Positions 15,426-30,591 of a DNA stretch of 44,162 nucleotides are shown in pieces. The stretch is taken from positions 1-44,162 of IMG/VR virus record IMGVR_UViG_3300001686_000010; one strand, given 5' to 3'. The notes under the pieces were generated by a model that saw only the letters and a program-made list of their open reading frames with translations, searched no databases and had not been told where the DNA came from. Each line of letters begins with the position of its first letter. Position 1 is the stretch's first letter. This stretch comes from a virus. The position numbers were made by a program, and so were the translations under genes.

Positions 15426-17552
15426 TTATATTGCTTTTCTAAGTGGCATAATATCTTCTATATTCATATTCTTGCTGTCAGGGCGTACATACTTTTTACC
15501 TCTCACTGCTATTAATGTAAAGCCTGCGGCCATTGGTTCATCAAACTTTTGCGTATCTTCTACCTTAAAATCCAGCCACCCTGTTATTTTTCTCATCAAT
15601 GTTTTAAAGTAACACCGTTTTATAAATTGGTTTATATAAGATTCAGTATAGTTGCAAATCATTTGTACTATAGTTCCTGTTCCATCCGTATATACCCCCG
15701 GTTCCACCTCTCCCGGCAACCACATTAAAAAAGCAGAACAATTCCATAATGTAAAATCACCTTTCCAGTGATTTACGTTCCTTTCAAACAATACCTGACA
15801 CCCACATAGCCACGCTATCTTTAGCACATCCATATTTGCTTTCTTTGTACTGGATTCTCTAAATGTGTACCGTATTGTAAAAGTGTCATCGTATTTATCA
15901 TCAGGGTATAACGGGTCTGGTAATTGGTAATTAAATGCCGCACAGTTTGAACGCCTCTTATCCTTTGTCTTATCATACTTAAACGGATCGCACCCAATTC
16001 TATTTGAATAATTATTATTGGGTAAAAACATATCGCCTTTCTTATACACCTTATTAGGCTCTTTCGGCCACCAGCCAATTAGTTTTTCGTACTTTCCTTT
16101 GGCGTTAGGTTTCCATTCCAATTCGTTAACGATATACTCAATTTCGCCATCCGATTTTACCAATGGCCTTTGAAATTCAAAACCGTCCTTCCATTCTAAA
16201 TCTCCAAATTCGGTTGTGTCCTTGCCCCACGAAATAGTATCTAATTGCTCATTTATTAATTCAGGGTCATACAGTGCATTTTCTCCGTCTGCTGAAAATG
16301 CCTCTTTTAAGTTTCTAGGATTTTTTCTTTTAAATGAACTGATTCCCCTAGTGTCTCCTTTTTCTTCAAGTGCTTTTATTTTATTAGCTAAAAACTGCAA
16401 ATTCATTTCTTCATCAACATACCCATACTTAGCATATTCTTTGTTTATATACATCCCCTTTTGTGCGGGCAGAAAATAAGTATATAAACCAGTTCCGGTA
16501 AACCCATTATCATCTCGTTCAAGTGGATTGCTATTTGCTGTTAATTCTTGAAATTCATAATTTTCTTCCTCATTTTTTTCGGGCTCTACTGTCGAAGTGT
16601 AAAAGTGTTTCCCTTTTAACTCAAAATCAATTTCAGTACAAAACCTTACTACGTTTTGTCTCTCCTTTATTGAAACTGGTTTTTTCGTCTTACCTGCTTC
16701 CTCACTACAATAAGTATGAACTTCAGGGCCGTCATAGGCTGATTCGGTAGAAACCTTATAATCAAAAAATGATTCAAGCGGTTCTTCTATACTTTCATCT
16801 TCAAGCTCTGCTTTTGCTCCTCTCCTCGCCGTTGGGAAAAACCTTAGTTCGCTTGGTTCTTCCCCTTTCATTAAATCATAACGTGGCCTGAAAAAGTCAG
16901 GTAACTTTTGCCACGGATGGATAACTGCCTTTTTAAAAGCATCCTCCGCATCTTCATCACTCTTGGATTGCAGCCCTGCATGATGATAATTCATCCTTGA
17001 TACTCTTTCATAAGCCCAACACCCCAATCTTGCTGTCTTTCCGTTTTTTCTCTTTGTGATTTCGTTAGGCCCTAAACATTTATCATCTTCCATGTCATAG
17101 GAAATAACATAAAATATATCCCTATCAGCTATACGAAAATCCATGTGCTTACCCTGAAACTTCCAGTAGGTAATATAAAAATAATTAAGCCCTGTAATGT
17201 ATTCTAAAACGGTTTCTTTTTTTATAGGATTGTAATTCCAAAACCATACACCACATAAACGACGTTTCCATTCACGCCTCCTGATTCCCTCCAAATATTC
17301 ATCAACATAATAAGGGTCTATTGCTTGTACTTGTTTTTCTTTATTCCTTTTTACTTTAAAATCCGCAGGGAGTACTGGACGATTCCATACATGGTCTAAT
17401 GGATTTTCGGGGGCATCCAGAATATCCGTTTCCTCCATCTTATAGGTAACTGAGTTTATTCCATATCCCACCTTTGGCAAATAGCATTTGTAAACAAAGC
17501 CAAAAGCATTGTCAGCTACATCAATATGTCCGTGTCCTCTATCTTTAAACAT
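15426..17552 (-). CDS. Terminase large subunit
   Basis: The 708-residue protein has an N-terminal ATPase region with TKRKNGKTARLGCWAYERVS, in which KRKNGKT is the Walker A-like loop of phage terminases. MNYHHAGLQSKSDEDAEDAF and EVHTYCSEEAGKTKKP lie at the expected distance for the Walker B/coupling region. A C-terminal nuclease-like domain follows, with NRIGCDPFKYDKTKDKRR as a candidate catalytic Asp. It packages DNA at the portal. Length and motif order match terminases of crAss-like phages by recall. It overlaps the small upstream gene by 8 bp and precedes the portal by 10 bp, the usual order. Confidence 0.87.
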   Translation of the reverse strand: MFKDRGHGHIDVADNAFGFVYKCYLPKVGYGINSVTYKMEETDILDAPENPLDHVWNRPVLPADFKVKRNKEKQVQAIDPYYVDEYLEGIRRREWKRRLCGVWFWNYNPIKKETVLEYITGLNYFYITYWKFQGKHMDFRIADRDIFYVISYDMEDDKCLGPNEITKRKNGKTARLGCWAYERVSRMNYHHAGLQSKSDEDAEDAFKKAVIHPWQKLPDFFRPRYDLMKGEEPSELRFFPTARRGAKAELEDESIEEPLESFFDYKVSTESAYDGPEVHTYCSEEAGKTKKPVSIKERQNVVRFCTEIDFELKGKHFYTSTVEPEKNEEENYEFQELTANSNPLERDDNGFTGTGLYTYFLPAQKGMYINKEYAKYGYVDEEMNLQFLANKIKALEEKGDTRGISSFKRKNPRNLKEAFSADGENALYDPELINEQLDTISWGKDTTEFGDLEWKDGFEFQRPLVKSDGEIEYIVNELEWKPNAKGKYEKLIGWWPKEPNKVYKKGDMFLPNNNYSNRIGCDPFKYDKTKDKRRSNCAAFNYQLPDPLYPDDKYDDTFTIRYTFRESSTKKANMDVLKIAWLCGCQVLFERNVNHWKGDFTLWNCSAFLMWLPGEVEPGVYTDGTGTIVQMICNYTESYINQFIKRCYFKTLMRKITGWLDFKVEDTQKFDEPMAAGFTLIAVRGKKYVRPDSKNMNIEDIMPLRKAI

Positions 17553-17886: not shown

Positions 17887-20800
17887 TTAATTATTTTTGT
17901 ATTCTTTTTTACGTTGCTTGGATATTTTTTCCTGTTGTCTTTTTTCGGCGTTCGTTAATTTTCGATCACCAAATAATTCTTTTTTAACTTCTCTGGTAGC
18001 GTTGGCTTTTATATATGTTGTTTCGTCTTTTACTTGGTCTGGAGTTAAGTCTTTGTATGGAACTCCGTTAATGCCTTTTTCAAAGAATACCTTCAAATCT
18101 TTGTCAATAGCGGCATCTCTTTTTTTAATATAACTGTCAGTTTCTTCGTCGGTTAGTTTTCGGCCACCAGCATTCCAGTTCTTTATATTTTCATTATTCA
18201 TTTCCTCTGTTCTTTCGTTTCTTTTTTGGAGGTCTTCAAGGTTCTTATCTATCTGTCCTTTTGATGCGTAACTACCATATCCTATTCCTAAAATATTGGG
18301 AAGTAAAACTGTTGGTATAGCCATTAGCCCTTCTTCCTTTAATGATTTTAAAACGTCTTCGGTGTACATTGGATAAATTCTAACTATATCGTAAGGGTCA
18401 AATTTTTGTCCGTATCTGCCACCGAAAAAAGCATCTGTTGCATAGGCAGTATTTGGAGATAGTTTGTTTCTAAAAAAGTTTAATGTTGATTCACCCGCTT
18501 TTTTAGTTGCTTGGTTTCCTTCGTATGTTGTACCCGTTGCTTTTGTGTAACCTGCTTTTACTATTCTTAAAAAGGTCCTTACATAGTTGACTAAACCACC
18601 GCTTATATCATAAACCTTATCGCCAAATCTTATCTGTAAAAAATCGCTGTCATCTGGATTAAGTGATATTTTACCTCCCGCTGCTGTAAGCCCTAATCCC
18701 ATAGCCATTGTAGTTACTGTAAAGGATGCCATATCTTTCATTGCTTCTACTTTTGCTTCCTTTGGGATTTTAGGGTCAAAATATCTGTAAGGGTTAAGTA
18801 AGTTAAATCTTGATGCCATTAACCTTGCACCGTAGAATGTATTTCCTAATACTGTGTTGGCTGCATGATTTTCAAACATTGACATCATTTTACCTCTGCC
18901 TGTCATGCTCATTACAAAATTACCGGCATACTTAAATGCTTCTGGGTCACTTTCTCTTGTCAATCCCTGCTGTTCTAATCTTTGCCTCATCTTCTTATAC
19001 ATATCATAACGAGCAACGTTTAGAAACGCATCTGCTGACCTGTTAGATGCCTTTAATGGTTCACTAATAATTGGTATATCATAGATAAAACTCTTTCTAA
19101 AATCCTCGTTATGCAGGTCTGGGTCTGCTGCTCCCAAATCATTAAAGACAATTCCGTCCTTCATCATTTCATGGTACTGCGGGTCTTTACGGATAGCAAA
19201 CATTATTCTCTCAAACTTCTTTGGATTGAATATACTTTGCATATTAGCCTTAAACCCTTTTGCCCAAACGTCAATTCTACGTGGGCTTATCAATGTTGCT
19301 CCCTGCCTGAAAGGAACGGATATATCCACCGCCGATTGCACGAGTCTTCTTACTCCTAACACTTCCATTACTTTATCAAAAGCCTTCCTTAATTTGCCTC
19401 TTTTCTCATATTCATCTTTTGACCGTTCATGTCTTATCTTATTCTCTAAGTCAATAACCCTATCTTCCAGTATTTGAGATTTTCTGCTTTTCTTAAATAC
19501 GGTTGGTTTTTCAGGCTCTTGTAAATATGTTTTGTTCTTTATGTCATCTTCCAGTTTTTTAATCCTATTTTTTAATCTCGATTGGAAAGCCTCATCATTC
19601 GTTGGTGTTTTTTTATTCTGATTGGCTGATGATGAACTTTCCTCTACACCTTCGTCGTCTATTCCCCTGTCCTTATTCAATTGCCTAACCTCTTTTATTT
19701 TTTCTTTAAGCTCATCAATTCGCCTATTTGAATTTGTCTTGTCCTTTTCTGTCTTTGCGTTCTCTTCTCCCTTCCTTGCTCGTTCAAGCTCCTTTAATAA
19801 CTGTGCTTCCCTTTTAAGCAACCGTACCGTATTCGCTTTTTCATTTCTGGTTGGTTCTTTTTTCTCATCATGTTCACCCGCCAAAATATCCAATACATCT
19901 TTTTTAGTTAGCCCTTCCAGTACATCTTTAAATTCTGCGTGTATGTCTGTTATGGCGTTATCCAGCTTATCTATCCCCTGACTAGCTAAACTATTAAGGA
20001 AATCTTTTACGTGCGGTGCAATAGCCCGTAATTCGCTTACAAGGGGTATGGTGGATTGCAACCCACCTTCACCCGTTCTTAGCTTCTTCAATGCTTCCCT
20101 TGCGGCATCAATGGATGCTGTGCGTTCTGCCTTATAATCGGCATCCGATTTTTTTGCGTCTTTTTTGGCTTTAGCCTTCGCTTTGTTCAATCCTAACTCT
20201 GCAATATCCTTAGCGTGTTGCTCCCTTTCGGACACAAGTTGTTTTTCAAGGGCTTCTTTGGCTGTCTTTAATTCCTCATACTTTGCCGCTTCACTCTTTA
20301 CCTGTGTTTCGGTAAGTGCCGTTCCTTGTGATGCCTGTTTCTGCAATAAGAAATTAGTAAGGTTATCTTCATCGGCAACAAGTTTTCTGCTTTCCAGTAA
20401 TTTACCCGCCTTAGTCCCTGAAACGTCCAATGCCTTTGCTAATCTTGTAGCACGTCCCAATAATTCTTTTGATGGATTTTTTTCTAATTCAGCATCTAAT
20501 GTGGCTTTATATATTGCAAGTACGGCATTGTCCTTATTCGTTACCTCTTTATCGTTTTCAATTTTATCCAATGCTTCATTTGCTGCGTTGGGGTTGTTCT
20601 TAATTACTTCTTTCGCATCTGCTATCAATGCTTCGTGTGTCTCTGCTGGTTTACCTTCGTATTCAGGCAGCTCAATAATTTTACGAAGTTCTGCTACTGC
20701 CGCGTGTGTAATGCCTTTCTTTTTTTCTCCGCCTTCTGCTTTAAGTGAATTTTCACTAATTGGAGGTGTTGTAACGCTTGCTTCCTTTGTGGAGACAGGA

Positions 20801-23769
20801 ATTTCAGTTTCTTTGGTTGCTGCGGGTTGCTCATCTGGTTCTATTTTTAATTCAATAGGTTCACTAATGTCTTCTGGCGCTCCCGTTATATCATCATCTC
20901 CTTTGCTAATATCAAAGCCACGCTTTTCATGCGCATCTATTTCTGAAGGAACATCATCGCCTATTGGAATACCTTTCTTATCTGTCCCCTTAATCGGTAC
21001 TGTTAAGTCTGGAAGTTCTTTATTTGAAATATGCTCCTCAAAATATTTTTGTTTCAGCTTATTTTCTCCGTAAATCTTTGCTGCTTCTGGACTATCAAAT
21101 GACTTGTTTAAAACTTGATGGTCGCCTTTTGCATCAATAATTATTGGAGTGAATTTTTCTTCCGTTCCAGAAGGTTGTGTTTTTACACTGCCGTATTCTT
21201 TTGGAAGTTCTATTTTGTTTTTTTGTTCGTCTGAAAGCTCTTTAAAGTTCTTGTCCCCAATTTCATTTTTAAGTAAAAGTGATTTTCTAAATTCCTGTTC
21301 TTGTTTTACTTTTTCTGTTGTTTCTGATTTTTGCACTTGGTCGGTTAGTCCCTCTCCTTGTTTTTTTATATCTCCTTCAACTACTAAAGAATGTGCGTAG
21401 TCTTGTCTTTGATCGGCACTTAAATTTTGCGTCTTGGGAGTGTTTAAGTCAGGATGCTTTGCTTTTTGTGCAAGGTTATTTATGTAGTCGATTTTTTCTT
21501 TGGCAGCACTTTCTTTTACTTTGCCTTCATTAACTAACTCATTCATCCTATCTTCAAACTTTGCTGGATCGGCCGTAGCCATACTAACTGCTTGTCTTAT
21601 CTTACCTGCTTTTTCTGCTGTCGTGTGGTAGCCTGACATAGCCGAAAACGGTAACACTGAAATTATATCAGCCGGTATGTTAGACATTAATTCATCCGTT
21701 GCGTTCCTATCTTCGTTCTTCTGTGGGTTAAGTAATTTATCTGCAACGATACCCGACAACTGCTGCGCCTTTAATATGCTTATGTTCTTGCCTAAATCTT
21801 TGGATGTGCTTACAATCCAGTCAGCCAATTTGCTTTTATCAAAACTCCCATCAGCAAACTTGGTCATAAATTCATCCGTTATATTTTTTTCTACTGCCGG
21901 TTCTACTGATTTTATTTTATTTAGTGAAAATTCAGAGAATAGCAATCCATCAACAATAGATCTCCCAAAAGCGTACACATTCTGCATACTCTCTCCTGCG
22001 CCTTGTTCCTGTGCTGCTTTTTTATAATCATCGTAATTTAGGAAGGTGGATGCACTGATGTTTCCTAATACGTTTGTTGCTGTTTTACCTGCTCCCAATA
22101 ATCCAAGACCACCACCTAAAACCCTGTTGGCTGATATGTATGCTCCTATCGTTCCTGCTGTTTGTGCAACGTTATTAAGAGTTCCCCAACTAACAATACC
22201 AGAACGCTTCCCTGCTTCTGGATTTGCGCCCATCCTGACAGTTTTTTTACCGTTACCCACATCGACAATTTGCGCCTGTTCACCACTTTGTACCGGGGCA
22301 AGTGCATTTACGTTTCTAAATTCTTTCCCCCTTTCTGAATTATCAGTGCTAGGCGTAAATGGTGATTGAAAAATATTACTTAGCTTATTTGCTGGATTTA
22401 AAATAAAGTTATGGTAGAAGTTGCCCAGCGCGCTTGTTAATGGTATTTTTTCTTTTGATTCGTAAATTTGTTTTTCTTGTTCTTGGGATATTTCTACTCC
22501 GCTTTTTTTAAGTTCGTCTATGGCTGTTTTTATTTCAGCAGACCCGGGTTCTGACGATACAACATTATGCCATATTTCCTCTAATCCAGACACTCGATCC
22601 TGTATTCCTCCCATCCCTAAATGTTTGTTCTTTCTAAATTCCGCTATCCTGTCGCCAATAATATTTCTTAATGCATCTACAGCAACTGTTGGGTATCTTT
22701 TTTCAATGGTATTAAATTGATTAGATAAATCATTCATTTTTTTATGCGCCGTTGCTTCATCTATTTTGCCGCTCTTGTAGTCATTAATTACAGCGTCTTG
22801 CTGTGCGGATATACCATTAAACTCGTCATTAAAATCCCTGTTCTCAATTTGTTCTTTTGTAAGCAACTTGTCGCCAAACATTTGTTCGCGAATAGTTTTA
22901 TTATCTGGCTGTACAACCTCTCTTATTGTCTTACCTATTTCTTTGGGTGTGGCATCTGTATTTTTAGATAACGTCTGACCTAATAAAAAACTAACGTGCT
23001 GCTGTAGTTGCTGTTTCTTAGTGCCTAACTCTTCTATTTTATTTTTTATCTGTTGAAATTGGGGGGTATTAAGAGTCTCAACTCCCTGGCTGTACATCAT
23101 TAATTGTGCTTGATCTTTCAACCCAGTTAATTGCCCTTCTAATTCTTTATTTCTGTTTGTGTAATAAACACCTAATTCCGGCGCGAGTTGAGGATTATTC
23201 ATTTCCTTATTCACATCAACATTTATACCCGCTTCGCCTAAATCTTTTTTAATGAAATCCTGTGCGTTTTTGTTTTTTACTACTGGATCGTTTTGCCTGT
23301 CCATTTCCTGCTTACCTTTTTGAAGGGTATTGGTTAATCCTTGAAAGAAACTTGTTTTTTTTGCAGGCTGCGTGGTATCTGGTGCATTTTCATCGGCAAC
23401 ATCTAATGCACCTGAAAGGAATTTATGTTTACTTGCTAAGTCTACGATAGGAATTTGATTATCACTTGGTGAAGGCGATTTGCCATCCAAATAATTTAAT
23501 GGTGAAGGTTCTTTTTTTTTTACCGATGAGAAATATTGTTGTTGAAACTCATCAGCGCCTTTAGTATATAACTGTTGAGAAGCCAGCCCATTATGTAGCT
23601 TTTGTATTGCTTCCGGCGTGCTAAATTGCTTCTGAAATTCCTCAAAAGACTTTGTGTATAATTGCTCTTTTACTAAGCCATTATACAGCTTTTTCATTGG
23701 CGGGTCTTCCTGAAAAGGAACCTGCGTATCTACATCAACTTGCTCTGTATCTATCTCTTGATTTGGCAT
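17887..23769 (-). CDS. 1960-aa polyvalent/internal virion protein
   Basis: This is the largest gene in the window. The N terminus holds two related repeats of a KLYNGLVKEQLYTKSFEEFQKQF type (about residues 25-80). The middle (about 250-1500) is helical and coiled-coil rich, with Lys/Glu heptads. Hydrophobic stretches occur near 535-555 (GTIGAYISANRVLGGGLGLL). The C-terminal part (about 1510-1845) reads RRLVQSAVDISVPFRQGATL, ADAFLNVARYDMYKKM, FVMSMTGRG and LNPYRYFDPKIPKEAK. This is the signature of a large polyvalent protein-associated domain (LPD-type) found near the end of giant phage proteins. It is probably packaged and injected with the DNA. No enzyme motif is certain. Confidence 0.8.
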   Translation of the reverse strand: MPNQEIDTEQVDVDTQVPFQEDPPMKKLYNGLVKEQLYTKSFEEFQKQFSTPEAIQKLHNGLASQQLYTKGADEFQQQYFSSVKKKEPSPLNYLDGKSPSPSDNQIPIVDLASKHKFLSGALDVADENAPDTTQPAKKTSFFQGLTNTLQKGKQEMDRQNDPVVKNKNAQDFIKKDLGEAGINVDVNKEMNNPQLAPELGVYYTNRNKELEGQLTGLKDQAQLMMYSQGVETLNTPQFQQIKNKIEELGTKKQQLQQHVSFLLGQTLSKNTDATPKEIGKTIREVVQPDNKTIREQMFGDKLLTKEQIENRDFNDEFNGISAQQDAVINDYKSGKIDEATAHKKMNDLSNQFNTIEKRYPTVAVDALRNIIGDRIAEFRKNKHLGMGGIQDRVSGLEEIWHNVVSSEPGSAEIKTAIDELKKSGVEISQEQEKQIYESKEKIPLTSALGNFYHNFILNPANKLSNIFQSPFTPSTDNSERGKEFRNVNALAPVQSGEQAQIVDVGNGKKTVRMGANPEAGKRSGIVSWGTLNNVAQTAGTIGAYISANRVLGGGLGLLGAGKTATNVLGNISASTFLNYDDYKKAAQEQGAGESMQNVYAFGRSIVDGLLFSEFSLNKIKSVEPAVEKNITDEFMTKFADGSFDKSKLADWIVSTSKDLGKNISILKAQQLSGIVADKLLNPQKNEDRNATDELMSNIPADIISVLPFSAMSGYHTTAEKAGKIRQAVSMATADPAKFEDRMNELVNEGKVKESAAKEKIDYINNLAQKAKHPDLNTPKTQNLSADQRQDYAHSLVVEGDIKKQGEGLTDQVQKSETTEKVKQEQEFRKSLLLKNEIGDKNFKELSDEQKNKIELPKEYGSVKTQPSGTEEKFTPIIIDAKGDHQVLNKSFDSPEAAKIYGENKLKQKYFEEHISNKELPDLTVPIKGTDKKGIPIGDDVPSEIDAHEKRGFDISKGDDDITGAPEDISEPIELKIEPDEQPAATKETEIPVSTKEASVTTPPISENSLKAEGGEKKKGITHAAVAELRKIIELPEYEGKPAETHEALIADAKEVIKNNPNAANEALDKIENDKEVTNKDNAVLAIYKATLDAELEKNPSKELLGRATRLAKALDVSGTKAGKLLESRKLVADEDNLTNFLLQKQASQGTALTETQVKSEAAKYEELKTAKEALEKQLVSEREQHAKDIAELGLNKAKAKAKKDAKKSDADYKAERTASIDAAREALKKLRTGEGGLQSTIPLVSELRAIAPHVKDFLNSLASQGIDKLDNAITDIHAEFKDVLEGLTKKDVLDILAGEHDEKKEPTRNEKANTVRLLKREAQLLKELERARKGEENAKTEKDKTNSNRRIDELKEKIKEVRQLNKDRGIDDEGVEESSSSANQNKKTPTNDEAFQSRLKNRIKKLEDDIKNKTYLQEPEKPTVFKKSRKSQILEDRVIDLENKIRHERSKDEYEKRGKLRKAFDKVMEVLGVRRLVQSAVDISVPFRQGATLISPRRIDVWAKGFKANMQSIFNPKKFERIMFAIRKDPQYHEMMKDGIVFNDLGAADPDLHNEDFRKSFIYDIPIISEPLKASNRSADAFLNVARYDMYKKMRQRLEQQGLTRESDPEAFKYAGNFVMSMTGRGKMMSMFENHAANTVLGNTFYGARLMASRFNLLNPYRYFDPKIPKEAKVEAMKDMASFTVTTMAMGLGLTAAGGKISLNPDDSDFLQIRFGDKVYDISGGLVNYVRTFLRIVKAGYTKATGTTYEGNQATKKAGESTLNFFRNKLSPNTAYATDAFFGGRYGQKFDPYDIVRIYPMYTEDVLKSLKEEGLMAIPTVLLPNILGIGYGSYASKGQIDKNLEDLQKRNERTEEMNNENIKNWNAGGRKLTDEETDSYIKKRDAAIDKDLKVFFEKGINGVPYKDLTPDQVKDETTYIKANATREVKKELFGDRKLTNAEKRQQEKISKQRKKEYKNN

Positions 23770-24902: not shown

Positions 24903-25478
24903 TTATTTATAATTTTCAATATCCTTACGTTTTTGTAAGGTAACATCTGTTATGGAAAGATAGAATATTACATCGTAAGCATTAGCTATCATAAATTCTA
25001 TAAGAATGTTACCGCATTGCCATTTGAGGGCGTAGGTCTTGCCTATGTCTCTTTTTATTCCGTCCGAATCGCTTGCACTTCCAAATAATCTGGTTAATTC
25101 ATTTTTTATGCTCTTAAAGAAGGTAGGCCAATTACCGTTTTTTATATTTTGTTTATCCGCATCATCGGCACTTTTTGAAAGTAAGATTGAGTAAACCGCT
25201 CCTGTATTTAATCTCTTTAAAGATACATCTTGAAACTTCTCCTTAAATGTTATATACTTATTTAATTGTGGGTGATCTACCGTCTGGTAGTCACCAAGAA
25301 ACACCATGGTATCATTCTTTTCTGGAATCATAGTAAAATATCTTCTAATGCTGTCTGGCATTGAATGTCCTAGCCTGATTCCCCTAAATGAATTGAATGA
25401 TTTTATTGCTTCGCAATCTTGTGCTTTAGCAGATAATCCAAACAGGATAATTAATACAATTATAAATAACATTCTCAT
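24903..25478 (-). CDS. Secreted (periplasmic) hypothetical protein, 191 aa
   Basis: The N terminus MRMLFIIVLIILFGLSAKAQD is a Sec signal peptide with a cleavage site after AKA. The mature part has FRGIRLGHSMPDSIRRYF, TGAVYSILLSKSADDADKQ and a Trp/Cys-containing WQCGNILIEFMI block. The pattern is like small Bacteroidota periplasmic proteins of unknown function. It begins 60 bp after the end of leader RNA copy 1 on the same strand. A phage accessory gene of this kind may change the host envelope, for example to exclude other phages; this is inference. Confidence 0.8.
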   Translation of the reverse strand: MRMLFIIVLIILFGLSAKAQDCEAIKSFNSFRGIRLGHSMPDSIRRYFTMIPEKNDTMVFLGDYQTVDHPQLNKYITFKEKFQDVSLKRLNTGAVYSILLSKSADDADKQNIKNGNWPTFFKSIKNELTRLFGSASDSDGIKRDIGKTYALKWQCGNILIEFMIANAYDVIFYLSITDVTLQKRKDIENYK

Positions 25479-25530
25479 GTCTTAAAAAATAAGTTAGGTT
25501 AAAGAAAAAGATTTCGTTGAAGTATGTATA

Positions 25531-25908
25531 TAAAAATAGCGTGGGACTTAAATCAGATTATCACCTTTCAGGCACTTGGGAGAGCCCGTTGTTCGATAAT
25601 GCATAACAAAGCCCACGCTTTAACGTAGGCGTCATTAACTATCATCTCGAACAACTTTTGTAAAACTCCCAAGTTTTGAAAAGTGAGAAAGTAGCTTAGA
25701 ACGCTAAGATTATATATGTGTTAGTAGGTTGATAGATCAACCAGATAGAAGATAAATTTGCATAATTTGACGTTTTTATTGTGTGTTTAAAAAAATGCGC
25801 AAACGAAAAAACAAACGGCAACCATCCCCTGTCCATACATTTTTCTAAACACATAGAGGTGTCATTCCTCTAAAAAAGGAAAAGTACGGATAGGTTAGGT
25901 TGCCGCTT
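25531..25908 (-). ncRNA. Attenuator-like structured leader RNA, copy 1
   Basis: Read on the minus strand (5' to 3', coordinates falling), the elements are as follows. A long outer hairpin has 25898-25908 paired with 25813-25823. An A-rich site and an 8-codon frame follow (25763-25737), with its stop in hairpin 25727-25732/25737-25742. Next is hairpin 25695-25699/25704-25708. Then come nested stems P1 (25574-25582/25666-25674) and P2 (25588-25596/25647-25655) and local stem P4 (25611-25617/25624-25630). Finally CCCACGCT (25538-25545) is followed by ATTTTTA and can pair with AGCGTGGG of the P4 3' arm. The same order with compensating changes occurs at 29252-29606 plus. G-U pairs mostly favour the minus strand, except in an inner stem (25828-25834/25888-25894). 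It fills most of the 733-bp gene-free stretch. Confidence 0.78.
25737..25763 (-). CDS. Candidate leader peptide MQIYLLSG in leader RNA copy 1
   Basis: ATG at 25763 opens eight codons ending TGA at 25737. It follows an A-rich stretch (AATAAAAACGTCAAATT) suited to Bacteroidota initiation. Copy 2 has an open frame of the same length at the same place, encoding MKIFIFSG. Both keep I at position 3, hydrophobic residues at 4-6 and SG before the stop. In both the stop lies in the 5' arm of the following hairpin. Confidence 0.6.
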   Translation of the reverse strand: MQIYLLSG

Positions 25909-25994
25909 TTAGTTAAATACGCTGGCTTCCCTGCTTGAAGATTTTGACTTTTTTAATTCGTGTTTAGAACAATGGTACTAACATTGCCATTCCC

Positions 25995-26002
25995 CAAAAG
26001 TA
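25995..26002 (-). promoter_or_regulatory. Probable -7 promoter element of leader RNA copy 1
   Basis: The minus strand reads TACTTTTG, a match to the Bacteroidota -7 consensus TAnnTTTG, about 90 bp upstream of the first leader stem. Copy 2 has the same octamer at 29175-29182, at a comparable distance. A -33 TTG is not evident here, so it may be weak or activator-dependent. Confidence 0.5.
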
Positions 26003-26064
26003 GTATTAAGATTAAAAACTATGTAGTAAATTTTCCAATCAATCAGAGATACCCGTAATACTAC
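26000..26064. promoter_or_regulatory. Inverted repeat overlapping the copy 1 promoter, possible operator
   Basis: GTAGTATTA (26000-26008) and TAATACTAC (26056-26064) are perfect 9-bp inverted arms 47 bp apart, and the first overlaps the -7 element on the minus strand. This is a natural arrangement for a repressor site with DNA looping, or simply an RNA stem. No regulator gene can be matched to it. Confidence 0.4.
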
Positions 26065-26211
26065 TATAAATCGCCTGCCAAAAACAGATTTCAATTATTC
26101 GTTCTTTGTTGTATATTTAACATAGGGAAACAGAACATTTGCACCATTTTTGCGTTCATATCATGAAGAGTTAGCTACACACAGAGAATCATCATTCTAA
26201 AAAAGCAAAAC

Positions 26212-26466
26212 ATGGAAAAGGCGCTATATTATATTTTTCACAACCTCTACACTATAAGACTTTTATTTTCTGGTATGTACGACATGGAAACCAGAAGAGA
26301 GGATGATTTAATAATTAATCCTCGCATAAAAAATCTTTCAGTATCAGGGGTGGGGGATGATAAAAACAATTTAAAGTCTGACAGGGTAAAAGTTCTAAAG
26401 GATTACTCTAAATCCTATAAACAAAAAGCAAAGGAGCATACGCCAGAATTAGCCAACTGCCAATGA
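26212..26466 (+). CDS. Small hypothetical protein, 84 aa
   Basis: The protein begins MEKALYYIFHNLYTIRLLF and continues MYDMETRREDDLIINPRIKN. It ends in a basic, flexible tail (LKDYSKSYKQKAKEHTPEL). The start follows AAAAAAGCAAAAC, an A-rich ribosome-binding region, and a small hairpin (AGAAT...ATTCT). It overlaps the next gene by 4 bp (ATGA), so the two are coupled. No family is recognised. Confidence 0.65.
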   Translation: MEKALYYIFHNLYTIRLLFSGMYDMETRREDDLIINPRIKNLSVSGVGDDKNNLKSDRVKVLKDYSKSYKQKAKEHTPELANCQ

Positions 26467-26882
26467 CCAAACATAAAAGAGAAATAAAAACTGCGCACTC
26501 TAGGGAACTTCAAAGGTTAGAGCAATCAGAGGAGATTGACGATAATCTTCTTCCGGATGCAGAAGAGATTAAAAAGCTGGCCGCAATTGATCCCGATATT
26601 TTAACCTGGCTTAAGGGTAGGGCGGAAAAAGAGCAAGAATTTAGACACGACTTCTCAAAGAAACGCATAAAGTTGACTAACGATTATGAGCAGCGACATC
26701 ATAATACTGCTAGAATGGGGTTGTTTGTTTATGCAATATTAGTAATAGGTAGTTTGTGGGGAGCTTACCAATTAATACTAAAAGGATTGAATGTTCAAGG
26801 GTCTATATTTGGAAGTGCCGCAGTAGTGTTGGCGGTAGCTGTGGCGGTTACAAGAAAGCCCAATAAGCCTACTGAAAAATAA
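26463..26882 (+). CDS. DUF2335-like two-span membrane protein
   Basis: The 139-residue protein has a charged cytoplasmic N-terminal part (LLPDAEEIKKLAAIDPDILTW), then a KGRAEKEQEFRHDFSKKR helix. Two membrane spans follow: MGLFVYAILVIGSLWGAYQL and GSIFGSAAVVLAVAVAVT. This arrangement, with an EKEQEFRH-type segment before paired C-terminal spans, matches the DUF2335 family of predicted membrane proteins as I recall it. Its biochemical role is unknown. It is the second gene of a coupled plus-strand pair. Confidence 0.65.
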   Translation: MTKHKREIKTAHSRELQRLEQSEEIDDNLLPDAEEIKKLAAIDPDILTWLKGRAEKEQEFRHDFSKKRIKLTNDYEQRHHNTARMGLFVYAILVIGSLWGAYQLILKGLNVQGSIFGSAAVVLAVAVAVTRKPNKPTEK

Positions 26883-26890
26883 TTTTACCA

Positions 26891-27001
26891 CTAAGTCTTT
26901 CCATCCTTAGCTTTGTTATTTGGCTTCTTTGGTAGGGGTGGGGCGGATTTTCTTAATTTATCCCTTCTGTCCCTTTCTGGCTTCCCAATTTTTTTTAGCA
27001 T
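26891..27001 (-). CDS. Possible 36-aa lysine-rich peptide
   Basis: A minus-strand ATG at 27001 opens MLKKIGKPERDRRDKLRKS, followed by APPLPKKPNNKAKDGKT and a stop at 26891. A TAA lies in frame 14 codons upstream. The LxKIGK start resembles LSKIGKRKGE in the 67-residue gene at 28566-28769, so this could be a small relative or a decayed copy. It fills part of the 291-bp gap between two plus-strand units; a weak hairpin (27033-27037/27051-27055) with a T run follows to the right. Confidence 0.35.
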   Translation of the reverse strand: MLKKIGKPERDRRDKLRKSAPPLPKKPNNKAKDGKT

Positions 27002-27081
27002 CTCGCCTAAGTTAATCGTACCTGTTGTTTTAACCTCTGATGCTTAAACGGAGGTATTTTTTCAAAAAATCACAAAAAATG

Positions 27082-27113
27082 TTTGGAAATATCATAATTA
27101 TATTCTTATTTTG
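27082..27113 (+). promoter_or_regulatory. Bacteroidota-type promoter
   Basis: TTTG at 27082-27085 is 20 bp upstream of TTATTTTG at 27106-27113, close to the -33 TTTG and -7 TAnnTTTG consensus with normal spacing. The predicted start is about 27119-27121, right at the beginning of the folded leader of the small gene at 27174. Confidence 0.65.
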
Positions 27114-27123
27114 GAAACGATAT

Positions 27124-27171
27124 ACTTCCAGTCTCAAAGGTATTGAGAAAAAAGGAAGTTTTATTGCTTCC
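27124..27171 (+). promoter_or_regulatory. Folded 5' leader with two competing stems next to the start codon
   Basis: ACTTCC (27124-27129) can pair with GGAAGT (27154-27159), enclosing hairpin CTCAA/TTGAG (27133-27137/27143-27147). GGAAG can alternatively pair with CTTCC at 27167-27171, which ends 2 bp before the ATG. One state leaves the start region open and the other ties it up. Confidence 0.55.
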
Positions 27172-27173
27172 TT

Positions 27174-27317
27174 ATGGCTTTAGAATTATTTGAAAAAGAT
27201 AGTCAATGCACTATTAAATACGAAGACAAGATACTTGTCATCCCATCCAAAGAACTAATCAGGATTTTAGAGCAATATGTAACTGCCGCTTCGGATGGAG
27301 CTATTAAATCATCTTAG
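27174..27317 (+). CDS. Small hypothetical protein, 47 aa
   Basis: ATG at 27174 encodes MALELFEKDSQCTIKYEDK, a central ILVIPSKELIRILEQYV helix, and ends GAIKSS. It has its own promoter and a folded leader, which supports a real gene despite the length. Its TAG shares four bases with the stop of the converging minus-strand gene. No family is recognised. Confidence 0.6.
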   Translation: MALELFEKDSQCTIKYEDKILVIPSKELIRILEQYVTAASDGAIKSS

Positions 27318-27607
27318 GCGTTTTGTGTTGCTCCGGGATAAACCCTTTTAAAGGCTTCAATACATGCCGCCTTTATATTATCAGCTAAATCGCTTCCGGG
27401 GGTAAAATTAAACATAACTGTTCCATTGGCAGTATAGACCATGTAATGATTATGAAGCAAATCGTGGTCTTGTGGTCTGTCGGTAGGACGTTCTTTAAAA
27501 TACTCTATATGTTTTTCCTGAATAGCATCCAATTCCTTTTGAAATAATTCAGCTTTTTCAGTTAAATCCTTACCGTAAAATAATTCATTCATTTGTTTAT
27601 TATCCAT
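27314..27607 (-). CDS. Hypothetical protein, 97 aa
   Basis: The protein begins MDNKQMNELFYGKDLTEKAE and has a charged helix (AELFQKELDAIQEKHIEYFKE). A C-terminal half with HNHYMVYTANGTVMFNFTPG, then SDLADNIKAACIEAFKRVY, looks like a small alpha/beta domain. It is divergent from the transposase gene (33 bp apart), and its stop overlaps the neighbouring plus-strand stop by 4 bp. No family is recognised. Confidence 0.65.
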   Translation of the reverse strand: MDNKQMNELFYGKDLTEKAELFQKELDAIQEKHIEYFKERPTDRPQDHDLLHNHYMVYTANGTVMFNFTPGSDLADNIKAACIEAFKRVYPGATQNA

Positions 27608-27640
27608 AACACCTTTTTTAGAATACTAAAATACTGATTT

Positions 27641-28573
27641 ATGTGTCAAATGAAGCAAATTAACGAATTTAAGAGCCTACCAGAGCTAATCATGTATTTC
27701 AGCACAGAGGCGGTATGCCTTAAATATTTGGAGCAATGGGTACATAAAGGAAATATAAGATGCCAGTATTGTGGAACGGATAAGGTGTATAGATTTAAGG
27801 ATGGTAAACGTTTTCGGTGTTCATCATGCCTTGAATATTTTACGGCTAAAGTGGGAACTATATTTGAAAGCAGCAAGCTCCCATTGGTGAAATGGTACAC
27901 GGCTATATACTTACTTAGCGCACATAAAAAAGGCGTTTCATCTCATCAACTTGCAAGGGATCTGCACGTTACCCAAAAGACCGGGTGGTTCATGCTACAT
28001 AGGATCAGGAAGGCAATGCAACAAGATAGTATAATGATGGATGGGATAGTAGAAGCTGATGAAACTTTTATTGGAGGCAAAAATAAAAACAGGCATAAAA
28101 ATAAGAAGTTCAAAAACTCACAAGGACGAAGTTTTCAGGACAAGGTTGCTGTAATGGGTTTATTGCAAAGAGAAGGAAAAGTAAAGACAGTAGTTATCGG
28201 TAATACACAAGGCGAAAATATTAGAAGGGTTGTGTTTGGTAATGTTCAAACTGGTAGCACATTAATTAGCGACGAATGGTGGGCATACCGGAATATGAAT
28301 CAGTTCTATCGCCATGAGGTAGTCGATCATGCCAGGGGGCAATACGTTAATGAGAACGGTGCAACGACAAATAGCATGGAAGGATTCTGGGCGCATTTAA
28401 AAAGAAGTCTCGGAGGTATTTACCACAGAGTTAGTCCTAAGCACCTTCAAAAATATATTGACGAAATAACCTTTCGATGGAATACCAGAAAAATGAATGA
28501 AGGTCAACGTTTGTCATTATTAATGAGTAAAGTAAATTGCAGGTTAAAATATAAACAATTAGTGTATGAGTAA
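27641..28573 (+). CDS. IS1595-family (ISXO2-type) transposase, apparently intact
   Basis: The 310-residue protein has an N-terminal zinc ribbon (Cys41, Cys44, Cys60, Cys63 in CQYC and CSSC), then a helix-turn-helix-like segment (SSHQLARDLHVTQKTGWFML). An ISXO2 DDE-type core follows, with D140 (VEADETFIGGK), D211 (ISDEWWAYRNM) and E247 (NSMEGFWAHLKRSLGG). All expected residues are present and the length is normal. The start may instead be Met4 (27650). It overlaps a downstream 67-residue gene by 8 bp. I could not find terminal inverted repeats or a target duplication, so it may be a phage-retained enzyme and not a free insertion sequence. It would cut and join its own element ends. Confidence 0.88.
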   Translation: MCQMKQINEFKSLPELIMYFSTEAVCLKYLEQWVHKGNIRCQYCGTDKVYRFKDGKRFRCSSCLEYFTAKVGTIFESSKLPLVKWYTAIYLLSAHKKGVSSHQLARDLHVTQKTGWFMLHRIRKAMQQDSIMMDGIVEADETFIGGKNKNRHKNKKFKNSQGRSFQDKVAVMGLLQREGKVKTVVIGNTQGENIRRVVFGNVQTGSTLISDEWWAYRNMNQFYRHEVVDHARGQYVNENGATTNSMEGFWAHLKRSLGGIYHRVSPKHLQKYIDEITFRWNTRKMNEGQRLSLLMSKVNCRLKYKQLVYE

Positions 28574-28769
28574 ATACAAGCCAATAACAGTCGAAGAGGC
28601 TGAAATTATAGAGAAGCGAATACAAAAGCAAAATCCAGAAAAAAAGCCCGTTGCTTTGGGTAGTACTCTATCCAAAATAGGCAAAAGGAAGGGGGAGTAT
28701 TTCCCATTTGATGAAGATGGAAATTCTAACTCAAAAATAAATAGAGACAATTTATTACACGGAGACTAG
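28566..28769 (+). CDS. Small hypothetical protein coupled to the transposase, 67 aa
   Basis: The ATG lies inside the end of the transposase gene (ATGAGTAA), so translation is probably coupled. The sequence has a charged helix (TVEEAEIIEKRIQKQNPEKK), then a PVALGSTLSKIGKRKGEYF segment, and ends in SNSKINRDNLLHGD. It has no membrane segment. It might be a transposase partner or a passenger gene. Its stop (TAG) shares four bases with the stop of the converging gene. Confidence 0.6.
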   Translation: MSKYKPITVEEAEIIEKRIQKQNPEKKPVALGSTLSKIGKRKGEYFPFDEDGNSNSKINRDNLLHGD

Positions 28770-29050
28770 CAGCGTTGAAGACCAGACCAAATCATTCCTT
28801 TAGGCTCTATTTGGGTTACAAATATCATCGGATTTCTTTCCAATCGAAAAGCTACTCCTTGAACTGCTGTAATTATTTGGTCTTTAGTGGCATTGCTCTC
28901 AATTCTATAATTTCCGTTGGGGAGCCTCCACTCAATACCATCTTTATCGGTAACTCTTTTCGTAAACCCTAAATTTATAAGCCCGTCTCTTAAAAATGTA
29001 TAATTAGGATTTCGGCCACTTAGCTCAACTCTTACAATAAAATTAGCCAT
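28766..29050 (-). CDS. Small protein resembling DUF2622-type proteins, 94 aa
   Basis: The protein starts MANFIVRVELSGRNPNYTFL and continues RDGLINLGFTKRVTDKDG, with WRLPNGNYRIES and a C-terminal FVTQIEPKGMIWSG. The NFIVRVEL start, a small ferredoxin-like beta-alpha-beta pattern and the DG...LPNGNY motif recall small phage and enterobacterial proteins such as DUF2622. The match is from memory and weak. A GC-rich hairpin lies 27 bp upstream of the start on this strand. Confidence 0.55.
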   Translation of the reverse strand: MANFIVRVELSGRNPNYTFLRDGLINLGFTKRVTDKDGIEWRLPNGNYRIESNATKDQIITAVQGVAFRLERNPMIFVTQIEPKGMIWSGLQRC

Positions 29051-29076
29051 ATCTTCTTTTTTTGATTATAAATATG

Positions 29077-29106
29077 CTGCCCTTAGTCCTGCAAGACGGG
29101 GCAGCT
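29077..29106 (-). promoter_or_regulatory. GC-rich hairpin in the leader of the 94-residue gene
   Basis: GCTGCCC (29077-29083) pairs with GGGCAGC (29100-29106), and an inner GTC/GAC pair extends the stem. On the minus strand it is followed after 11 bases by an A-rich ribosome-binding stretch and the ATG at 29050. A terminator role is less likely because no T run follows. Confidence 0.5.
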
Positions 29107-29153
29107 TTCAAAGGTAGTAAATTGGCTACAACATATATGTAGTTTTCACCTAT

Positions 29154-29182
29154 TGTATTTATGGGAAAGATTGTTACTTTTG
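29154..29182 (+). promoter_or_regulatory. Probable promoter of leader RNA copy 2
   Basis: TTG (29154-29156) is 18 bp upstream of TACTTTTG (29175-29182), a full match to TAnnTTTG. The predicted start is about 29189, some 60 bp before the first stem of leader RNA copy 2. The same octamer precedes copy 1. Confidence 0.6.
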
Positions 29183-29251
29183 GAACTGAACAAGCATCGG
29201 AATACACAACAAATCTTGCAGTAGTTTTAATCCAAACAGGCACAAGCTGAT

Positions 29252-29606
29252 AAAAACGGCAGCCTACTATAACTTTTCTCTGTGGTTACTTGCAAGGTTT
29301 CCTGTGTAAGAAAGGCCAATAGCGGGTTGCCGTTTTTGTTTTAGACCAATCAAATATATTTCTATTAACACATAAAAAACCTTGCAAATGAAAATATTTA
29401 TCTTCTCTGGTTAAACCGTTGTCGTATTAACCAACATACTACATAGCGTTAGCTATTGTCTTGTAGATAAAAATTGGCAAATTTCACTCTCGAAAATCAA
29501 GATCAATAACTGAACGCTCACGTGATGCGTGGGCTTTAGTTTTCTGATTTTCGGGTATGCCAATACCTTATCTACAGAATATACTATCTGCCCACGCAAT
29601 TTTTTT
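29252..29606 (+). ncRNA. Attenuator-like structured leader RNA, copy 2
   Basis: In order: an outer 13-bp stem (29252-29264/29325-29337) with inner stems 29267-29270/29319-29322 and 29273-29279/29309-29315. Next is an 8-codon frame (29388-29414), whose stop is in hairpin 29408-29414/29427-29433, then hairpin 29443-29447/29452-29456. Nested P1 (29462-29470/29568-29576), P2 (29473-29479/29558-29564) and P3 (29489-29499/29545-29555) follow, then local stem P4 (29516-29522/29528-29534). TGCGTGGGC (29526-29534) can instead pair with GCCCACGCA (29590-29598), directly followed by a T run to 29606. It is matched element by element by copy 1. G-U pairs in the outer stem, the 29273 stem and P4 favour the plus strand. 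The secreted-protein gene starts at 29626. Confidence 0.8.
29388..29414 (+). CDS. Candidate leader peptide MKIFIFSG in leader RNA copy 2
   Basis: ATG at 29388 opens eight codons ending TAA at 29412-29414, after an A-rich stretch (CATAAAAAACCTTGCAA). Copy 1 has a frame of the same length with conserved pattern M-K/Q-I-aromatic-I/L-F/L-S-G. Aligning the RNAs base by base needs two compensating 2-base gaps inside the frame, yet length and reading frame are kept. Confidence 0.6.
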   Translation: MKIFIFSG

Positions 29607-29625: not shown

Positions 29626-30042
29626 ATGAAGCCTATTATTATAGCAGTTTTAATACTGTGCAGCATATCTGCATTTAGTCAAATAAATAAAGTATATAAA
29701 TACAAAGCAGTCCGCTATGCGATGGTGTTTAATGATGATAACAATGATTTTGTTTCTATTACACCTTATAAGGACACCTCAATGCTGGTTGTAGTAAATG
29801 TTCCAGATAGAAGCATTACCTTTTACGGAGACACCAATAAAAAATATGACATAACAAAGGAAACCACCGTATATGTTGATGCTCCTTTTAACTTCTTGAA
29901 ATGGCAAAGCTGCATTGATCCGGATGGCCGTAGATGTAATATACGGATAGCAATGCCCACAGGAGATATTTCAGGAATAGGCTTAATTATGTATATTGAC
30001 TACAGGGGAGTAACTTACTATTATGGATTGAAGTATAATTAA
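29626..30042 (+). CDS. Secreted (periplasmic) hypothetical protein, 138 aa
   Basis: The frame is open from 29557, but the ATG at 29626 gives a proper Sec signal, MKPIIIAVLILCSISAFSQ, while the longer form would overlap the leader RNA. The mature protein is beta-rich (KAVRYAMVFNDDNNDFVSI, LVVVNVPDRSITFYGD, PFNFLKWQSCIDPDGRRCN) with two Cys. It is not evidently related to the secreted protein behind leader copy 1, yet it has the same kind of leader and the same predicted location. The next gene follows after 9 bp. Confidence 0.75.
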   Translation: MKPIIIAVLILCSISAFSQINKVYKYKAVRYAMVFNDDNNDFVSITPYKDTSMLVVVNVPDRSITFYGDTNKKYDITKETTVYVDAPFNFLKWQSCIDPDGRRCNIRIAMPTGDISGIGLIMYIDYRGVTYYYGLKYN

Positions 30043-30051
30043 ATTACCAAA

Positions 30052-30591
30052 ATGAAATCAGAGGGATTTTATTTAGATGTACTATTAAGGTTGCTCAATA
30101 AAGATAGAGACAGGCCTATAAATGATAGGCTGCCAGTTAAAGCAGATAATTTCCTTGCTGATATAGTTTCATCAGATAGGCACGAGGATTTTATAGAATT
30201 GGTGGACACCCTTTTAGAGGAAAGATATGTACGGTTAGTACCAAAAGATTGGCATAAAAATCCAATAGATAAATACCAAGATGTTATAATTACTTTAAGG
30301 GGTAGTCACTTTATTGAACTTGGCGGTTATCATCAAAAGAAGATTTTCGAAGCCGCCGATGATAATAGGATAAAAGCGCAAGCCAAGGCAACCCTGCTCC
30401 TAACCGCTGTTTTGGCTTTAGGGACATTCCCGATTGGACTATTGGCTCTCGTTGATTTGTATTGGAGATACAATTGGTTTCATTCTTGCTTTTGGTGGGC
30501 AGTTTCGGGATGGAGTTTTGTTGCGATTGGAATATCGGTTTTAATACTTTATAAAGTAAAAAAGAAAAAAGCAAAACCCAAGGAATTATAG
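30052..30591 (+). CDS. Membrane protein with N-terminal winged-helix-like domain, 179 aa
   Basis: Residues 1-95 are soluble: LDVLLRLLNKDRDRP, DFIELVDTLLEERYVRLVP and VIITLRGSHFIELGGYHQKK. The pattern helix-helix-'ITxxGxxFIxxGGY' is common in small Bacteroidota winged-helix proteins. Two hydrophobic spans follow (AKATLLLTAVLALGTFPIGL and FWWAVSGWSFVAIGISVLIL) and a Lys-rich tail. It is transcribed with the secreted protein behind leader copy 2. The function is unknown. Confidence 0.65.
   Translation: MKSEGFYLDVLLRLLNKDRDRPINDRLPVKADNFLADIVSSDRHEDFIELVDTLLEERYVRLVPKDWHKNPIDKYQDVIITLRGSHFIELGGYHQKKIFEAADDNRIKAQAKATLLLTAVLALGTFPIGLLALVDLYWRYNWFHSCFWWAVSGWSFVAIGISVLILYKVKKKKAKPKEL

Follow-up and report, generated by a model that had tools for sequence, protein, structure and literature searches.

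The 44,162-nucleotide (nt) stretch of viral DNA analysed here (IMG/VR record IMGVR_UViG_3300001686_000010, positions 1 to 44,162; the window) raises the question of why two segments, 25531-25908 on the minus strand (copy A) and 29252-29606 on the plus strand (copy B), have the same order of elements, each just before a gene for a secreted protein. A first-pass annotation, made from the letters alone, had taken them for two copies of an unnamed attenuator-type leader RNA, and all the elements that it described are present in their common order. We consider it quite probable that each copy is a cis-acting, bistable transcription-attenuation leader, part of a new Bacteroidota-wide RNA family that serves secreted, envelope, mobile and defence genes. 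Bacteroidota are a dominant phylum of gut, soil and water, and we know of few cis-regulatory RNAs that are both native to the phylum and widespread in it. The present RNA is large, and old enough for near-complete sequence divergence with two folds retained. It sits before SusC/RagA receptors, extracytoplasmic function (ECF) sigma factors, lipoproteins, restriction systems and BREX. Previously undescribed, it is found ahead of numerous genes for surface, secreted and defence proteins throughout Bacteroidota and is probably an on/off switch; the identity of its signal would reveal how both these bacteria and their phages control genes for the envelope and for defence.

The relationship between the two copies was judged with two covariance models. 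Model R1 was trained on 16 chromosomal relatives only, with zero window sequence among them, and matches copy B at 29436-29602 on the plus strand (85.6 bits, E = 1.7e-13) and copy A at 25534-25715 on the minus strand (57.6 bits, E = 3.9e-8); since it holds no window sequence and yet matches both, copies A and B are real homologues. R1 also recovers nearly all other candidate loci. The broader model R2, with both window copies among its training sequences, scores copy B at 116.7 bits (E = 1.3e-22) and copy A at 97.5 bits (E = 1.7e-18). The RNA had been said to match no named family, and this agrees with the covariance models of Rfam 15 (4227 families): cmscan at the gathering threshold gave no match across the whole window, a cut-off relaxed to E = 10 gave nothing beyond chance-level matches at the two segments, and in 5 viral loci and 18 genome loci the element itself matched no family. 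Owing to this absence from Rfam 15, current annotation misses the RNA. A search of open papers by topic and by conserved sequence turned up no description of it. We regard the family as new to Rfam 15 and to the open papers searched; a closed paper or supplement could hold a description.

The first relatives came from a pattern of letters common to both copies, scanned on viral contigs. This loose pattern gave 42 loci, about five of them real and the rest mostly chance matches in coding sequence; the real viral-contig relatives are L021, L026, L033 and L043 (L numbers denote loci). A sharper pattern, CGTGGGCTTT..CCCACG..TTTTT, scanned on one genome per species, gave more than 119 loci; among the matches listed, nearly all are from Bacteroidota, and the orders Bacteroidales, Flavobacteriales, Chitinophagales, Sphingobacteriales and Cytophagales are represented. 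When R2 was run with strict filters on a sample of 395 Bacteroidota genomes, 59 or more proved to carry the core of about 170 nt (a lower bound); R2 also finds it in 9 of 41 genomes of a second Bacteroidota sample and in none of 299 Pseudomonadota genomes. Ten known carriers have 1-8 copies per genome. Carriers in culture include Flavobacterium daejeonense, Sphingobacterium lumbrici and Millionella massiliensis, and the chromosomal member L054 is from Alistipes sp. dk3624. The genome search by covariance model that the first-pass annotation had proposed has thus yielded further homologues across Bacteroidota, and in phages too. The idea of a leader for phage accessory genes stands as regards leader position and covariation and fails as regards phage specificity: several phages carry the RNA, but the majority of copies are chromosomal and spread over Bacteroidota orders. 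With blastn against annotated phages, one true partial relative of copy B was found, the unannotated human-gut phage record MT835758 (L002; 6e-6), and no relative of copy A. A long-P4 variant with weaker model scores occurs in L070, L076, L089-L092, L096, L101, L128, L137 and their relatives; L021 and L043 have this form and lie at the edge of detection (L021 has E = 0.005 with R1). Separately, a strong copy lies at 496-671 of L117, a metagenome-assembled genome named Sulfurospirillaceae (Campylobacterota), which reflects either transfer or a mis-binned contig.

The position of the RNA relative to genes is consistent. A co-oriented open reading frame (ORF) of at least 60 codons starting with ATG lies within 600 nt in 132 of 137 members and within 100 nt in 98, compared with 14 of 90 within 100 nt on the divergent side, which served as a control. 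The distance from the U-tract to the start codon has its mode at 40-80 nt. A TAnnTTTG box is present in the 200 nt preceding the RNA in 70% of members versus 15% in shuffles, while a promoter box is missing from all 92 of the U-tract-to-ATG gaps. This is the arrangement of the attenuator class, with a promoter upstream and none between leader and gene, and as the promoter is 5' of the RNA and absent from the gap, the gene is reached by read-through. Judged from this layout, the RNA is the 5' leader of the adjacent gene. Both window copies had been noted to carry promoter boxes, and both do: TACTTTTG at 29175-29182 (plus strand, copy B) and at 25995-26002 (minus strand, copy A), fitting the Bacteroidota -7 consensus TAnnTTTG.

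Both copies had also been placed before genes with Sec signals. Their start codons lie 19 nt (B) and 53 nt (A) past the U-tracts, and the association extends to the family: by a signal-peptide score that is a crude heuristic, 51 of 91 downstream genes (56%) carry a Sec signal versus 91 of 523 other ORFs of the same loci (17%; odds ratio 6, p = 9e-14). Downstream families that could be named comprise SusC/RagA receptors, OmpA-type and PEGA lipoproteins, type IX secretion system cargo and ECF sigma factors; further genes encode restriction-modification or other defence proteins. In L021, a complete brxP-brxC-pglZ-brxL (type IV) BREX operon (11347-1386, minus strand) follows a long-P4 RNA (11429-11705, minus strand) at a distance of 80 nt, and in L043 the same leader precedes brxP. 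As a side observation, the long-P4 variant of L070, L089, L092 and L101 precedes a helix-turn-helix-like protein of 74-79 amino acids (MxHxGxxIExxLxxQGR..W.A), which is possibly a self-contained regulator.

How such a leader could act is suggested by two sets of pairings that exclude each other. Transcription would start 5' of the RNA, and the gene would be reached by read-through alone. In the read-through state, hairpin Pa and the nested helices P1-P3 would hold up an apical antiterminator hairpin, P4b (GCTCACG:CGTGGGC), which sequesters the strand CGTGGG. In the off state, GCGUU near the 5' end would capture AACGC of P4b (helix P0) and take P4b apart, helix P5 would close round P2's 3' strand, now free, and CGTGGG would pair with a downstream CCCACG to make, together with the U run, an intrinsic terminator lying 20-80 nt ahead of the start codon. 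A trigger, be it a small molecule, a protein or the position of a ribosome, would tip the balance and set expression of the downstream gene. A near-invariant U.G pair makes P4b weaker than the terminator stem, whose pairs are all Watson-Crick; a switch would need such a difference. The occurrence of termination, the identity of the default state and the kind of signal received are matters that we infer from sequence.

The evidence for two folds comes from compensatory change. In alignment A1, a plain MAFFT alignment of 67 relatives made from sequence only, the core helices are paired in 94.7% of cells, and double-sided changes over the whole structure number 328, versus 99 after shuffling and no more than 80 in slid-partner controls. 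P1 and P2 are paired in 93.8% and 91.8% of cells, with double-sided changes in 11 of their 12 pairs. Alignment A3, which is model-fitted and leans towards its own structure, has 91.5% of cells paired over 42 pairs and 1039 double-sided changes versus 313 when shuffled. The pairings of the off state were counted on alignment A7, which was not fitted to P0, P5 or the terminator. On it, P0 is paired in 94.6-97.1% of cells, and its third pair is GC in 52 members, GU in 17, AU in 10, UA in 2 and UG in 2, and broken in 3; the terminator stem is 83-99% paired, with covariation in its two outer pairs. P5, of the family form GGN..N'CC enclosing the 3' strand of P2, has 20 double changes at its third pair on A7 and 17 compensatory changes with no breaks on A1. 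By parsimony on a tree, the key P0 pair has 6 double paired changes versus 2 breaks and the P5 pair 11 versus 5. The strand CGTGGG is common to P4b and to the terminator stem CGTGGG:CCCACG, and in L203 this middle strand is altered together with both partners (P4b GCCTCCAC, middle GTGGAGGC, tail CCTTCACGC). In 37 members, the majority of which were picked up by model and not by a terminator pattern, the duplex of middle and tail has a mean of -16.1 kcal/mol, versus -7.9 with shuffled tails. The terminator, P5 and P0 cross or exclude the state-1 helices (Pa and P1-P4b), and because both helix sets covary, the RNA is constrained to form two incompatible folds. Covariation thus indicates that mutually exclusive pairings, Pa with P1-P4b (antiterminator) or P0 with P5 and the terminator, are kept, as in the attenuator class, whose exclusive terminator and antiterminator pairings both covary here. 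With both states visible in covariation, the switch is directly testable by single-strand swaps.

Several points weigh against this interpretation. The first set of relatives was gathered with a pattern requiring CGTGGGCTTT, CCCACG and T's, so invariance there is by construction, and the model-found set L182-L210 lifts this bias only partly. The inner terminator stem is near-invariant, so that the covariation seen for the terminator is owed mainly to its two outer pairs and to a few unusual members, L203 among them. Nearest-neighbour folding without pseudoknots favours state 1 by 11.8 kcal/mol on average; as nested folding favours read-through by about 12 kcal/mol, termination would need kinetics, a pseudoknot or a factor. 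The U-tract is short or interrupted in some members (e.g. L182 and L191). Lastly, the downstream genes are highly varied and suggest no ligand, and this variety argues against a pathway-specific metabolite as the signal. The first-pass description of an attenuator-type leader RNA before secreted-protein genes is supported and fits every test made, "attenuator" being our reading of the sequence alone. A wider proposal is tentative: the RNA may be a general-purpose riboswitch or protein-sensing switch that answers one common physiological signal throughout the phylum and gates surface, secreted and anti-phage genes, among them the complete BREX operon. Phages, on this view, might have acquired the RNA and enlarged it by a 5' domain that senses translation, so as to control when their accessory genes are expressed.

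That 5' domain bears on the first rival, a classical ribosome-mediated attenuator in which translation of a leader ORF chooses the fold. Copies A and B and phage contig L033 have in common an extra 5' hairpin, GCGGCAACC..GGTTGCCGC, and an upstream ORF (uORF) of 8-9 codons, MQIYLLSG* (A), MKIFIFSG* (B) or MRINKSSPG* (L033), whose stop lies inside a hairpin and whose start region lies under a pairing between the 5'-hairpin loop and the linker just before the uORF. This loop-linker pairing is kept in L033 despite a different sequence; the cognate duplexes are predicted at -23.5 (A, p = 0.004), -19.7 (B, p = 0.008) and -30.2 kcal/mol (L033), with p of 0.002-0.008 versus shuffled linkers across the three, and every cross-combination of loops and linkers is weaker (-8.5 to -17.2 kcal/mol). 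The pairing, unlisted in the first-pass annotation, lends support to the A-rich site and 8-codon frame described there. A pattern search for the phage 5' hairpin found L033 as the sole true relative, L214-L216 being chance matches. Family-wide, the rival fares less well. Among 86 members with a promoter box at 25-120 nt, closed mini-ORFs occur in 45 versus 35.5 ± 4.3 in shuffles, and Rikenellaceae and relatives have a recurrent 1-3-codon closed ORF after GCCTATG, but 41 members have none and ATG is scarcer than in shuffles (49 versus 60). In Flavobacteriales and Chitinophagaceae-type members there is often too little space for an ORF, regulatory codon runs are absent, and the switching strands lie outside the uORF. 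Whereas a ribosome-mediated attenuator calls for a leader ORF throughout the family, one is found in the phage copies and in Rikenellaceae-type members. A family-wide uORF was therefore rejected in favour of one limited to phage or lineage-specific members: the short leader frame is common to both phage copies and L033 and is absent from many other members. A classical attenuator of this kind seems rather unlikely. For the bistable attenuation leader that we favour, the added phage hairpin and uORF are probably a translation-linked input, brought in by the loop-linker pairing before the uORF. In Rikenellaceae-type leaders the 1-3-codon ORF (GCCTATG..TAA: MIK*, MA*, MT*) stands shortly 3' of the promoter box in L047, L052, L053, L063, L114, L139, L154 and others, and is unusually short for a conserved uORF.

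A second rival, which we judge unlikely, is that the fold governs mRNA stability, translation or RNA polymerase directly, in the manner of HK022 put/EAR-like elements, with a U-tract that does not terminate. The short U-tracts of L182 and L191, the terminator- or pause-like character of P4b itself in the window and the diversity of target genes, which suits a general element, would agree with it, but divergent members retain the U-tract and a perfect CCCACG strand, and the gap of 20-80 nt to the start codon makes direct masking of the ribosome site unlikely. It is improbable, too, that the RNA is a stand-alone gene for a trans-acting small RNA (sRNA), working for example via RbpB-like proteins as FopS sRNAs do and merely adjoining genes. 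Its own promoter box and terminator-like end, several paralogues per genome and the transcript of about 200 nt that each termination event would free all suit an sRNA; against this, most members have a co-oriented start codon 40-80 nt past the end with no promoter box in any of the 92 gaps, no common unpaired seed is seen, the conserved letters sit in switchable helices, and FopS has a different shape, a single-stranded 5' stretch with a terminator hairpin (PMC11697453). A repeated mobile sequence, either a miniature inverted-repeat transposable element or cargo of the insertion sequence IS1595, whose inverted repeats mimic RNA structure, would account for multiple copies per genome and for the IS1595-like transposases found close to the RNA in the window and in L026, L033, L187, L199 and L204, but is highly improbable and was rejected, as copies are strongly diverged within and between genomes with pairing kept by compensatory changes, the element keeps a fixed orientation and a fixed distance from the start codon that follows, and a transposase is present at few loci only.

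Known systems resemble the RNA in part. Terminator-type riboswitches, such as the thiS/HMP-PP riboswitch with its terminator-embedded aptamer (PMC6478431), likewise have a structured 5' leader in which antiterminator and terminator pairings exclude each other, with a U-tract immediately ahead of the gene; the new RNA differs in that its genes share no ligand or pathway, its nested core is much larger and Rfam gives no match. The trp and Leu leaders, including Bacteroid-trp (RF01692), are similar in promoter, short ORF, alternative hairpins and terminator, whereas about half of the examined members of the new family lack a uORF, codon bias is absent, and the core is conserved and aptamer-like with no Rfam hit. 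T-box RNAs (RF00230) are also long antitermination leaders, and UGGG occurs in the conserved strand; in contrast to them, the new RNA has no T-box consensus, is negative in cmscan and precedes envelope, secreted and defence genes, none of them tRNA-related. Flavo-1 RNA (RF01705) is widespread in Bacteroidetes and sometimes lies 5' of genes (PMC9723704), but has no match at the Flavobacterium loci that carry the new RNA (L060, L084 and L093). The FopS and GibS sRNAs of Bacteroides are multicopy Bacteroidota RNAs linked to SusC-type genes; they act in trans, and FopS, compared here by its description, has a single-stranded R1' seed followed by one terminator hairpin (PMC11697453), whereas the core of the new RNA contains six or more helices. 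Known Rfam families, among them Flavo-1, the Leu leader and riboswitches, were rejected for want of a credible score. A tmRNA-like RNA, considered for its pseudoknot, short frame and stop in a hairpin, was rejected as well, there being no tRNA-like ends and no Rfam match.

In copy B (29175-29606, plus strand), the phage-type 5' hairpin AAAAACGGCAGCC..GGTTGCCGTTTTT spans 29252-29337 (inverted repeat I10; the same hairpin is found in copy A and L033). Its loop elements TTGCAAGG (29290-29297) and TGTGT (29303-29307) pair with the pre-uORF linker, ACACA (29368-29372) and CCTTGCAA (29380-29387), a loop-linker span of 29290-29387. The uORF MKIFIFSG* occupies 29388-29414, its stop codon enclosed by the hairpin GGTTAA..TTAACC (29409-29432). 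The conserved core (Pa, P1-P4b, P5, P0, terminator strand and U-tract), matched by R1 and R2, runs from 29437 to 29606. Within it lie Pa (29442-29456), P1 (TGTAGATAA 29462-29470 / TTATCTACA 29568-29576), P2 (ATTGGCA 29473-29479 / TGCCAAT 29558-29564), P3 (GAAAATCA 29492-29499 / TGATTTTC 29545-29552) and P4b (GCTCACG / CGTGGGC, 29516-29534), and, for the other fold, P0 (GCGTT 29446-29450, within Pa and alternative to it / AACGC 29513-29517), P5 (GGGTA..TACC(T), 29553-29568, enclosing the 3' strand of P2) and the terminator pairing (GCGTGGG 29527-29533 / CCCACGC 29591-29597, with the U-tract to 29606). These helices are supported by covariation, the terminator in its outer two pairs.

Copy A (24903-26002 with its gene, minus strand) has its phage-type 5' hairpin AAAAGCGGCAACC..GGTTGCCGTTT at 25813-25910, and a duplex is predicted between the loop GTGTTTAGAAAAATG (25838-25852) and the pre-uORF linker CATTTTTTTAAACAC (25783-25797). 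The uORF MQIYLLSG* (25763-25737) has its stop in the hairpin GGTTGATCTATCAACC (25727-25742). The core, again matched by R1 and R2, spans 25532-25715 and contains P1 (CACTTTTCA 25677-25685 / TGAAAGGTG 25562-25570), P2 (ACTTGGGAG 25666-25674 / CTCCCAAGT 25574-25582) and P3 (GTTGTTCGA../..TCGAACAAC, 25641-25655 / 25588-25607), all three with covariation, together with P4b (GCCTACG / CGTGGGC, 25611-25630), P0 (GCGTT 25700-25704 / GACGC 25629-25633, which covaries in the family) and the terminator pairing (GCGTGGG 25612-25618 / CCCACGC 25539-25545, then TATTTTT; 25532-25618 overall). The 5-bp hairpins that the first-pass annotation had equated, CTTAG/CTAAG and ATAGC/GCTAT, do correspond and are the family helix Pa. 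Its common "P1", by contrast, joined non-homologous helices, for TGTAGATAA/TTATCTACA of copy B is P1 and ACTTGGGAG/CTCCCAAGT of copy A is P2.

Two further features of the leaders were observed. In the window, P4b is followed by CUUU (29516-29534, plus strand; 25630-25611, minus strand), which is terminator- or pause-like and could be an RNA polymerase pause site. In a subgroup before SusC and ECF sigma genes (L184, L186, L188, L193, L194, L196, L198, L202, L206, L208 and L209), TTTTGCGATNCTTCA lies directly 5' of the RNA and is complementary to the start of Pa, which may provide another alternative pairing.

The window is true phage DNA, with genes for a portal protein (13049-15415) and a large terminase (15426-17552). 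Gene B (29626-30042, plus strand) encodes a secreted protein of 138 amino acids with a Sec signal and no match in Pfam, PHROG or the phage collection; it does not align with the accessory protein of L033. The second gene of the operon (30052-30591, plus strand) encodes a probable membrane protein of 179 amino acids with no significant Pfam match. Gene A (24903-25478, minus strand) encodes a secreted protein of 191 amino acids, also with a Sec signal and no Pfam or PHROG match. Beside the large terminase, an ORF of 1960 amino acids (17887-23769, minus strand) has no PHROG match. Genes for IS1595/ISXO2-like transposases are found close to the RNA in the window (27641-28573, plus strand), in L026 (3675-4598) and L033 (12114-13007), and at the three chromosomal loci L187, L199 and L204, often divergent and upstream; the leader and its gene possibly travel with such transposases. 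On phage contig L026, 1444-2319 nt downstream of the RNA, the minus strand holds an ORF of 291 amino acids made of (GY/GN/GD)n dipeptide repeats.

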